From Halovivax limisalsi (lineage in GTDB: Archaea; Halobacteriota; Halobacteria; Halobacteriales; Natrialbaceae), in contig NZ_CP095757.1 of the NCBI RefSeq assembly GCF_023093535.1, positions 1,922,001-1,986,000 of the forward strand: a stretch of 64,000 nt of DNA, read 5' to 3'. Positions 47,189 to 49,110 of the stretch are shown here, one piece after another (the stretch's first letter is position 1; every line of letters begins with the position of its first letter). A program made the position numbers and the translations under genes. Below the pieces are notes generated by a model. That model saw nothing but the letters and a program-made list of their open reading frames with translations, was not told the DNA's origin and ran no database searches.

Positions 47189-47527
47189 ATGGGTGTTTTC
47201 CGTCCGCTCGTCGTAGGAGACCCCGTGAACGCGCTCGCCATTCGCCGAACCGCTCGCAACGTCTGGTCCTTCTATCGGGGCTACGTGGACTCGCCGGTCC
47301 ACGCCCTCTCGGCGGCGCTGCTTGCCATCTTCAGGATTCTCGTCTTCGTCGATCCGCTGTTCGCGATCCTCGCCATCGCGGCGTACGTCATCCCGCCGAT
47401 CGTCCTCTTCTCGACGGACTGGTCCGCGCGGTTCGAGCCGGCGGACGAACCAAAAGGGCGATCGTCCGAGCCACCCCGTTCAACCGACTCGCGATCGACC
47501 GAACGTGGTGGCACCGGGATCGGTTGA
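47189..47527 (+). CDS. Small haloarchaeal membrane protein, possibly truncated by a TGA
   Basis: 112 residues: helical N-terminus (LAIRRTARNVWSFYRGYVDS), two hydrophobic segments (LSAALLAIFRILVFVDPLF, AILAIAAYVIPPIVLFS), then a disordered hydrophilic tail. A GTG at 47225 is a possible alternative start that would remove 12 residues. After the TGA at 47525 the same frame stays open for 31 more codons, with an acidic Asp-Ser-rich sequence (about 47562-47620) before a second TGA at 47621, so the protein may have been longer. No known family recognised. Confidence 0.55.
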   Translation: MGVFRPLVVGDPVNALAIRRTARNVWSFYRGYVDSPVHALSAALLAIFRILVFVDPLFAILAIAAYVIPPIVLFSTDWSARFEPADEPKGRSSEPPRSTDSRSTERGGTGIG

Positions 47528-47955
47528 CCGGAACGGGCTGGTCGCCCGGGACAGACCGACGCCGATAGCGATTCGGATAGCGACGACGGTGATACCGACA
47601 CGGATTCGGATAGCGACTCGTGATCGAGTATGGTGGCCGGGAGCGTGCCCGAACGGTAGTGAGGGCGCGCGACCCGGGGAAGGGCTGGCTTACAACAAGT
47701 ACGTTGTACCGCGAGCAGCCCTCGGCTGCGAGCGGGCCGACGACCGATCCAAAAGCCGCGCTTGGCGCGGCTGTCGGGGAGGGAGGAGTGCTTTTTCATC
47801 GAAGTTTTTCCGAGCGTCGGCGAGCTGTGCGCCAGCGAAGCTGGCGTCAGCTCGCCAGAGCGTGGTTCGAAAGGCGCTTCGCGCCTTTCGTCATCACGAG
47901 AGAGCGAAGCTCTCTCGAACGACAGCGAAAAAGTTCGGCGTAAAAAGTTCGTTAT
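47528..47955. other. Convergent intergenic island of hairpins
   Basis: 428 bases between convergent genes. The first 96 are the in-frame acidic continuation after the small membrane gene. The rest holds at least five hairpins in about 200 bases (47715-47917), three of them with perfect stems of 8-10 bases and a loop of three. No convincing protein gene. Confidence 0.75.
47715..47917. repeat. Array of short perfect hairpins with trinucleotide loops
   Basis: Hairpin 1: gcagcc/ggctgc, loop ctc (47715-47729). Hairpin 2: agccgcgc/gcgcggct, loop ttg (47754-47772). Hairpin 3: ggcgagctg/cagctcgcc outside and cgccagc/gctggcg inside, loop gaa (47819-47856). Hairpin 4: cgaaaggcgc/gcgcctttcg, loop ttc (47868-47890). 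Hairpin 5: cgagagagc/gctctctcg, loop gaa (47897-47917). Stem sequences differ but architecture is shared. They could be terminators for both convergent genes, or a REP-like element. Confidence 0.8.
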
Positions 47956-49110
47956 TTAGAACGCGCCCTTGCCGAGGTGCTCGCGCGCGATGATGTTCTT
48001 CTGGATCTCGGTGGTCCCCTCGTAGATCTGGGTGATCTTGGCGTCGCGGTAGAAGCGTTCGACGGGGAAGTCGTTGACGAAGCCGGCGCCGCCGTGGATC
48101 TGGACGGCCTCGTCGGCGGCGTCGACGGCGACGCGGGAGGCGAACTCCTTGGCCATGGAGGCCAGTTTCGTGATGTCCTCGCCCTGGTCGACCTTCCAGG
48201 CGGCCTTGTAGGTGAGGTTGCGGGCGGCCTCGGTCTCGGTGGCCATGTCGGCGATTTTGTGCTGGATGGCCTGGAAGTCGGAGATCGGGCGGCCGAACTG
48301 TTCTCGGTCCTTGGCGTACTCGGTGGCGGCTTCGAGGGCGCCCTTCGCGATGCCGACGCCCTGGGCGGCGACGGCGGTGCGGGTCTCGTCGAAGAACTGC
48401 ATCTGCTGGAGGAACGCGGCGTCGCGGGTGCCGATGAGGTTCTCCTCGGGCACGCGCACGTCGTCGAGGATGAGCTCGGCGGTGTCGGAGGCGCGGATGC
48501 CCAGCTTGCCCGTGATCTTCTCGGCGCTGAAGCCGTCGCGATCGGATTCGACGACGATCTGGGAGAAGCCGTTGTACCGGCCCTCGGCGTCGGGGTTGGT
48601 CTCGGCGAGGACGACGAAGTAGTCGCCGACGGAGCCGTTCGTGATCCACATCTTGTTGCCGTTCAGGACCCACTCGTCGCCGTCCTTCTCAGCGCGCGTG
48701 GAGACGGAGGAGACGTCCGAACCGGTGTCGGGTTCGGAGATGGCGGCGCCGGTGATGGCCTCGCCGGCGGCGACGGGTTCGAGGAAGCGTTCCTTCTGCT
48801 CGTCGGAGCCGAACGCGATGATGGCTTCGCAGCCGAAGGAGGTGGAAATCAGCGAGAGGCCGATCCCCGGGTCGACGGCGAAGAGCTCCTCGACGATCAT
48901 GGCCACCTCGAGGGAGCCGTAGCCGGCGCCGCCGTACTCGACGGGGATGTGGGGCCCGAGCAGGCCCATGTCGGCGGCTTTCTCGACGATCTCGTGGGGG
49001 TACTTCTCCTCGACGTCGTACTCCGTGGCGACGGGCGCGATCTCGTTCTCCGCGAACCGTCGCACCTCCTCCCGGAGTTGCTGCTGTTCGTCGGTGAGTT
49101 CGAAGTCCAT
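47956..49110 (-). CDS. Acyl-CoA dehydrogenase
   Basis: FAD enzyme that introduces the trans-2 double bond in acyl-CoA, the first step of beta-oxidation. 384 residues, standard length. The N-terminal alpha domain starts MDFELTDEQQQLREEVRRF; the FAD-interacting region reads GAAISEPDTGSDVSSVSTRA and WITNGSVGDYFVVLA; the catalytic base is Glu364 in ITQIYEGTTEIQ. It converges with the gene to its left across the hairpin island, and is divergent from the beta-oxidation fusion gene to its right. Chain-length preference cannot be inferred. Confidence 0.95.
   Translation of the reverse strand: MDFELTDEQQQLREEVRRFAENEIAPVATEYDVEEKYPHEIVEKAADMGLLGPHIPVEYGGAGYGSLEVAMIVEELFAVDPGIGLSLISTSFGCEAIIAFGSDEQKERFLEPVAAGEAITGAAISEPDTGSDVSSVSTRAEKDGDEWVLNGNKMWITNGSVGDYFVVLAETNPDAEGRYNGFSQIVVESDRDGFSAEKITGKLGIRASDTAELILDDVRVPEENLIGTRDAAFLQQMQFFDETRTAVAAQGVGIAKGALEAATEYAKDREQFGRPISDFQAIQHKIADMATETEAARNLTYKAAWKVDQGEDITKLASMAKEFASRVAVDAADEAVQIHGGAGFVNDFPVERFYRDAKITQIYEGTTEIQKNIIAREHLGKGAF

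Follow-up and report, generated by a model that had tools for sequence, protein, structure and literature searches.

A modular, hairpin-rich gene-end element downstream of an acyl-CoA dehydrogenase gene in Halovivax limisalsi and its relatives in haloarchaea

The locus and the anatomy of the element

In the window, i.e., the whole 64,000-nt stretch of the Halovivax limisalsi genome analyzed here, two genes converge on the region of interest, as an earlier note on this DNA had described: a plus-strand ORF, for which a Pfam search found no family, and the minus-strand gene of an acyl-CoA dehydrogenase (Table 1). The ORF has its TGA at 47525-47527, yet the frame remains open on to another TGA at 47621-47623, and this extension (47525-47623) reads as a Ser/Asp-rich tail; similar codon repeats were seen by eye to face the element at other dehydrogenase loci.

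The same note claimed a cluster of five stem-loops with three-base loops at 47715-47917, and a scan for perfect hairpins found all five, with perfect stems and with the positions and loops as claimed. The stem of up to 16 bases corresponds to the third hairpin along the window, namely its inner 7 bp plus the 9 bp of an outer arm in which 47819-47827 pairs with 47848-47856. This region is the densest 250-nt cluster of perfect triloop hairpins in the 64-kb window (n = 5), while the densest cluster in 20 order-2 Markov shuffles held two to four hairpins, the value of four being reached in one of the 20. Fold prediction, a check that the note had proposed, gave z = -6.7 as DNA and -6.9 as RNA for the minus strand of 47690-47950, and none of 200 shuffles folded equally well in either form. 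The element as a whole (~47673-47951, ~280 bp) is wider than the cluster first noted.

Table 1. Features of the gene-end region, numbered from the first letter of the window
Feature	Position	Strand	Basis
Convergent ORF, 112 aa	47189-47527	+	ORF list, Pfam search
Whole element, acyl-CoA dehydrogenase upstream	47673-47951	-	parts repeated elsewhere in genome; orthologous loci
Distal block CCCGGGGAAGGGCTGG, similar among orthologues	47673-47688	+	
Hairpin 3, CCGCGAGCAGCC-CTC-GGCTGCGAGCGG, tandem G.A mismatches on + strand	47709-47735	+	
Hairpin with stem of 6, loop CTC	47715-47729	+ (sequence)	perfect-hairpin scan
Hairpin 2, stem of 8, loop TTG on + / CAA on -	47754-47772		perfect-hairpin scan; orthologues
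Core GGGAGGAGTGCTTTTTCATCGAAGTTTTTCCGAG, whose double T-tract faces the dehydrogenase gene; query for relatives	47781-47814	+	
Hairpin 1, inner stem of 7 (TTC loop on -), outer 9-bp stem; other stems in orthologues	47819-47856	-	
Inner hairpin, stem of 7, loop GAA on + / TTC on -	47830-47846		perfect-hairpin scan
Two-hairpin module TC-GTTCG-P2-CGTGATGACG-P3-CGAAC-CA (fourth and fifth hairpins of the earlier note)	47863-47922	-	
P3 of module (fourth hairpin), stem of 10, loop TTC on + / GAA on -	47868-47890		
P2 of module (fifth hairpin), stem of 9, loop GAA on + / TTC on -	47897-47917		
Stop-proximal T-tract arm, second copy; partner of distal A-tract arm; C.C mismatch beside T-tract	47928-47937	-	
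Stop-proximal T-tract arm, first copy, CGAACTTTTT on - strand, 4 nt past stop codon	47942-47951	-	
Acyl-CoA dehydrogenase, gene preceding the element	47956-49110	-	family match

When read from the stop codon outward, the consensus drawn by eye begins with CGAAC-TTTT(T), hairpin 1, (A)AAAA-CTTCG-ATGAAAAGCACTCCTCCCTCC, and hairpin 2, and it continues with GGTCGTCGGCCCGCTCGC, hairpin 3, GCGAGCGGT, and CCTTTCCCCG. The T-tract arm and the A-tract arm pair with each other and thereby form an outer stem, the positions of which vary as G-C, A-T, and C-G pairs among 67 elements with 17 distinct arm pairs. In these 17 arm pairs, 98 of the 102 cells were paired vs a mean of 70.8 and a maximum of 83 after shuffling. 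The C.C mismatch beside the T-tract is kept in 59/67 elements, furthermore, and the T-tract lies at most 170 nt upstream of the A-tract arm in all of the 67 type-A elements. In the copy of the window, the stop-proximal arm AAAAAGTTCG is tandemly duplicated at 47928-47951, which provides the dehydrogenase gene with two T5 tracts.

Tandem G.A mismatches, on the strand that reads towards the gene, are present in hairpin 3 of 55/57 scored copies, and none of the 57 is fully Watson-Crick at that site. This count leaves 115 of 172 elements unscored, of which 58 lack GTCGGCC, 30 lack the hairpin-3 pattern, and 27 have unformed neighbouring pairs. Such conservation argues for a strand that folds. On the plus strand, GGGGAGGGAGGA at 47776-47787 is a Shine-Dalgarno-like run, the complement of which resembles the 3' end of 16S rRNA. 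A peptide reading of this strand (GGAGG and then GTG) was set aside, because the hairpins vary between copies.

Dispersal, position, and turnover of the stems

When the region was used as a query against its own 3.89-Mb genome, 19 matches were obtained at an E value of 0.001 or better (self included); the search of the genome for similar arrays, also proposed in the note, thus finds parts of the region at other genome sites. With up to two mismatches, the core TTTTCATCGAAGTTTT gave 26 matches in the genome (self counted) vs one for the reversed control, and with up to one mismatch it was matched in 20 of 41 genomes (own counted), including all five of the genus Halovivax, vs none for the control. 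In a named collection, 54 of 68 matches to the core pattern were haloarchaeal, in genera that we take to be Natrialbaceae, and the other 14, which are bacterial records, were left out of all later counts. A wider pattern, AAAAGCACTCCTCNCTCC, was matched in 64 of 195 Halobacteriales genomes, and most of 20 stretches taken from two further families are laid out alike. In L298 and L299, which belong to other families, the double T-tract is TTTTTAGTCCAGGTTTTT or TTTTTTGGTCCAGATTTTTT; given such variants, the element class is probably wider than the search patterns used. In short, the region belongs, as a single copy, to a large family of modular gene-end elements in haloarchaea.

Rfam covariance models gave a best E value of 0.31 on the region of the window, with all scores below gathering, and nothing but a tRNA reached the gathering scores at five further loci. 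Among the open-licence papers listed, judged by their titles and abstract openings, we found none on the element or its module. The element would combine known kinds, namely terminator, palindromic repeat, and double-hairpin element, in what appears to be a new form.

As to position, a sense ORF of coding-like, haloarchaeal composition ends 40-235 nt (median, 49 nt) before the core in 87 of 122 elements; for the remaining 35, no preceding sense ORF was called by our crude caller, which misses some (e.g., that of L054). Among the 87, the next gene runs in the same direction in 35 cases and convergently in 34, with 18 uncalled. The element is hence tied to the end of the preceding gene and not to convergence, and with 35 vs 34 among the 69 callable cases we dropped the idea of a terminator purely for convergent genes. 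Many of the genes concerned have housekeeping roles. At least two species carry the element after the genes for EF-2, IF-2, PAN, RadA, TFS, GDH, and thermosome, and also after those for the DNA polymerase II large subunit, PstB, ribosomal L10e, and acyl-CoA dehydrogenase, where the names are our assumption from the C-termini except for the dehydrogenase (family match). Of the 30 acyl-CoA dehydrogenase orthologues compared, which are part of those listed, inspection by eye recognized the element in 16 (a relaxed core pattern did so in 10), and 14 lack it, so the element is dispensable there.

Outside the family, the element is found directly after the genes of tRNA-Leu (778-861, in L246) and tRNA-Ala (1045-1116, in L249), in both of which a T4 tract lies within ~10 bases of the tRNA end. 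A third such case, L260, was rejected, since its tRNA-Leu ends at 1364. In L260 (1282-1482), the 3' end of tRNA-Leu (GGTTCGAATCCTGTCCCGCGCA) is repeated ~90 nt past the gene, and an element with the module starts there; this repeat looks like an integration scar.

At orthologous loci, the stems differ in sequence and stay paired: in the Halovivax dehydrogenase orthologues, the stems of hairpins 1, 2, and 3 have all changed and still pair. Covariation in relatives, another check of the note, is evident in that orthologues keep the pairing and that both the outer stem and the module stems covary, while stems destroyed by unpaired changes, which the note named as the refuting case, are not the general pattern. 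Single unpaired changes do exist; our census of 172 elements, which took in loops of 3 or 4 nt, counted 30 imperfect vs 230 perfect distinct hairpins. In the first slot, 83 of 93 segments have a stem of at least 6.

The loops are biased in sequence. Three-nucleotide loops occur in 211 of the 230 perfect hairpins, and 134 of these 211 triloops are GNA (58) or TNC (76), with 199 closed by C-G. Control sequence, most of it coding, has triloops in 27 of its 437 hairpins, five of these loops being GNA/TNC and 11 having a C-G closing pair. For the first element set, triloops were counted in 120 of 229 hairpins (GNA 41, TNC 41). Both loops and mismatches are nearly strand-balanced (GNA 58 vs TNC 76; G.U-able 11 sense, 8 antisense), and an antisense bias of single mismatches in an early count (n = 8) was dropped with this larger set. 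Complementary loops on the same stem make up 29 of 256 pairs vs 6.6% after shuffling (p ~3e-4, which is optimistic as hairpins share descent and are not independent).

Computed energies took one value for all DNA loops shown and one for 63 of 64 RNA loops; because the parameter sets did not separate the loops, the stability of GNA is taken from PMC4686876, which describes a GNA loop closed by C-G as extraordinarily stable in DNA. Template switching, furthermore, can make and repair stems (PMC8794818) and keep the arms identical without selection (PMC8794818, PMC8604942), and loop flips of tcc to gga and ttc to gaa by template switching are documented in yeast (PMC8604942). An excess of complementary loop pairs is expected where template switching inverts loops. 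The GNA/TNC loops, their C-G closing, and the small strand bias thus favour a signature of DNA mini-hairpins with loop inversion over selection on one RNA strand, and we infer that the hairpins are renewed at the DNA level. The view of the note that the stems imply selection for pairing is accordingly half retained: the pairing is conserved, but selection is not compelled, since template switching would also keep the arms alike.

The two-hairpin module

The module, ~60 nt in length, has the form GTTCG-P2-CGTGATGACG-P3-CGAAC and is flanked by GTC in 31/31 and by CAC in 28/31 copies, with G before the inserted TC and C after the inserted CA in 29/31. Its pattern was matched in 127 of 195 Halobacteriales genomes, some of the matches listed being chance coding sequence, and never by the reversed control; a covariance model of the module detected it at an E value of 1e-4 in 100 of 117 Halobacteriales genomes. 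In a draw of 100 genomes across the phylum, the model hit all 15 Halobacteriales and none of the 85 others, where match counts are not copy numbers because they include both strands of one site and are capped by the number of candidates scored (46 or 53). The genome with the most pattern matches among the 195, G180, has 30 (16 forward and 14 reverse).

Changes in the module stems were two-sided in 65 and one-sided in three cases, with covariation of 0.326 vs 0.127; the dropping of 13 of 44 matches with an arm unpaired at the first four bases inflates the pairing score of this set. Among those dropped, L265, L269, L278, and L281 look like real but imperfect modules. Few G.U intermediates are seen in the module stems of this set, which was filtered for paired arms.

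The clearest comparison is found after pstB: L172 and L003 align over 118 nt with five mismatches and with no gap where L003 has a 62-nt module, and this one clean pair, which concerns the module and not the whole element, displays no target-site duplication. After the dehydrogenase, PAN, and EEWFTYP genes, too, one species carries the module and the others compared lack it, but there the flanks have diverged further. Sites of the module include slot 1, the loop of hairpin 3 (L124), a linker (L238), and other inverted repeats (L264, L266, and L290). The eight slot-1 copies that were read share a single orientation, as would be expected from gene conversion between elements no less than from insertion. 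Taken together, the module is likely to be mobile, as far as sequence comparison can tell.

Interpretation and comparison with known systems

We consider, with a probability of about 0.58, that the element is a two-way terminator with continually rewritten hairpins, into which a mobile double-hairpin module has been inserted. The stop-proximal T4-5 tract would end the mRNA by archaeal T-stretch termination, and a second, inverted double T-tract, CTTTTTCATCGAAGTTTTT, would stop transcription from the other side, making the element a two-way terminator and insulator with hairpin slots between and beyond the T-tracts. Template switching during replication, at GNA mini-hairpins, would copy and correct the hairpins and invert their loops, and the hairpins would be retained because their structure is useful. 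The fourth and fifth hairpins of the earlier note would be the mobile module inserted into this copy. Termination at the T-tracts in vivo, mobility of the module, and DNA-level renewal are inferred here from sequence. In Haloferax volcanii (H. volcanii), termination reached 95% of transcripts at a T5C stretch and 59% at a hairpin signal (PMC7237163); with opposed T4-5 tracts right after genes, this suggests terminators acting both ways. The two-way terminator proposed in the note would thus stand in that T4-5 tracts meet the polymerase from either side, but convergent genes, on which the proposal was based, are found in only 34 of 69 cases.

The conserved blocks past the first T-tract and the G.A mismatches of hairpin 3 exceed the needs of a terminator and suggest an RNA on the strand towards the gene. 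The far part, which comprises the double T-tract, the GGAGGGAGGAGTGC block, and hairpins 2 and 3, might encode a small non-coding RNA or serve as a structured 3' UTR, transcribed in the direction of the gene and with the T-tracts as its own terminator. Conserved linker blocks, the tandem G.A on that very strand (55/57 scored, 0/57 fully Watson-Crick), a double T-tract placed at the 3' end of such an RNA, and the compensatory changes in the outer stem and the module, which are a hallmark of structured RNA, would all be accounted for; nonetheless, no Rfam family matched the window region or the five further loci, the filtered module set has hardly any G.U intermediates, and loops and mismatches are nearly strand-balanced, whereas selection on one RNA strand should be lopsided. 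We therefore regard this explanation as unlikely. A C/D-box reading of GTGATGA, which we take to be such a motif, was rejected, as no D box was seen by eye.

Even less probable, in our judgment, is that the whole element is selfish, namely a palindromic repeat of the REP/MITE kind, inserting at gene ends and playing no part in termination. Against this, the same orthologous gene ends carry the element across genera, the element brings its own T-tract, and neither a Y1 transposase in the genome nor a target duplication at the pstB module site was found; dispersed copies, a modular make-up with the module present or absent at a clean site, 14 of 30 orthologous dehydrogenase sites without the element, and the L260 copy behind a repeated tRNA-Leu 3' fragment, as integration sites can be, speak on its behalf. 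Template switching might also by itself make and keep palindromes where replication stalls, with gene ends merely tolerating them. This pure mutation artefact would explain the GNA/TNC loops with C-G closing, the complementary loop pairs on equal stems, the near absence of half-changed pairs in the module, and the same loop flips in yeast (PMC8604942), but fixed linkers, the conserved C.C mismatch (59/67), the G.A of hairpin 3, and the conserved location behind stop codons call for selection or shared ancestry, and we find it very hard to credit.

The two-way terminator with rewritten hairpins may also be extended to a haloarchaea-wide, self-renewing system of DNA hairpins at gene ends, where an enzyme-less module inserts between G and C in hairpin loops and junctions of terminators and where replication template switching, starting from d(C-GNA-G) mini-hairpins, rewrites the stems pairwise; what is inherited would then be structure and not sequence. 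This extension is tentative, and we would sooner doubt than believe it. If the preferred reading is true, a whole archaeal order would have a recognisable gene-end signal, which would aid annotation and the study of archaeal termination, and the module, which was detected in 100 of 117 Halobacteriales genomes and matched no Rfam family at the loci tested, would represent a small mobile unit of a new sort. Hundreds of natural hairpins, furthermore, make selection for pairing vs template switching testable through half-changed pairs and inverted loops.

In comparison with known systems, bacterial REP/BIME palindromes are dispersed and intergenic, with proposed roles in termination and mRNA stability. 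Our element likewise consists of dispersed intergenic palindromes but is longer and multi-hairpin, and the ends of its module have no regular tag: in 31 copies, the 5' ends are TGTC (15), AGTC (8), GGTC (7), and CGTC (1, L238), and GTAG occurs at the end of one copy (L280). A search for the Y1 transposase (PF01797), which was positive in five of 14 known genomes as a control, gave no match in this genome, so a REP with a resident Y1 transposase was ruled out; the label "REP-like" given in the note holds loosely for dispersed palindromes and fails on the transposase and, at the module ends, on the GTAG/CGTC tag. The target-site duplication that is a hallmark of MITEs is absent from the pstB pair. 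Double-hairpin elements are known from fungal and algal mitochondrial DNA, and the module resembles them as two intergenic hairpins with a short spacer and with insertion polymorphism; it differs in residing on an archaeal chromosome, often inside terminator elements, and in having a fixed outer stem (GT-C-GTTCG/CGAAC-C-AC) and the spacer CGTGATGACG; the likeness drawn here is one of layout.

The T5C terminators of H. volcanii (PMC7237163) share with the element an intergenic T4-5 tract soon past the stop codon and hairpins near some sites, while here the tract is a stem arm, is one of two opposed tracts, and forms part of a multi-hairpin element that is dispersed and has conserved linkers. 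The d(GCGNAGC) mini-hairpins (PMC4686876) have the same GNA loop closed by C-G, but those are synthetic oligonucleotides, whereas the loop bias here is a genomic statistic. Finally, inverted repeats maintained by template switching (PMC8794818 and PMC8604942) likewise have arms that change in concert and loops that become inverted, GAA/TTC and TCC/GGA among them; unlike those, which concern scattered genes, the present hairpins belong to a natural element repeated across an order.
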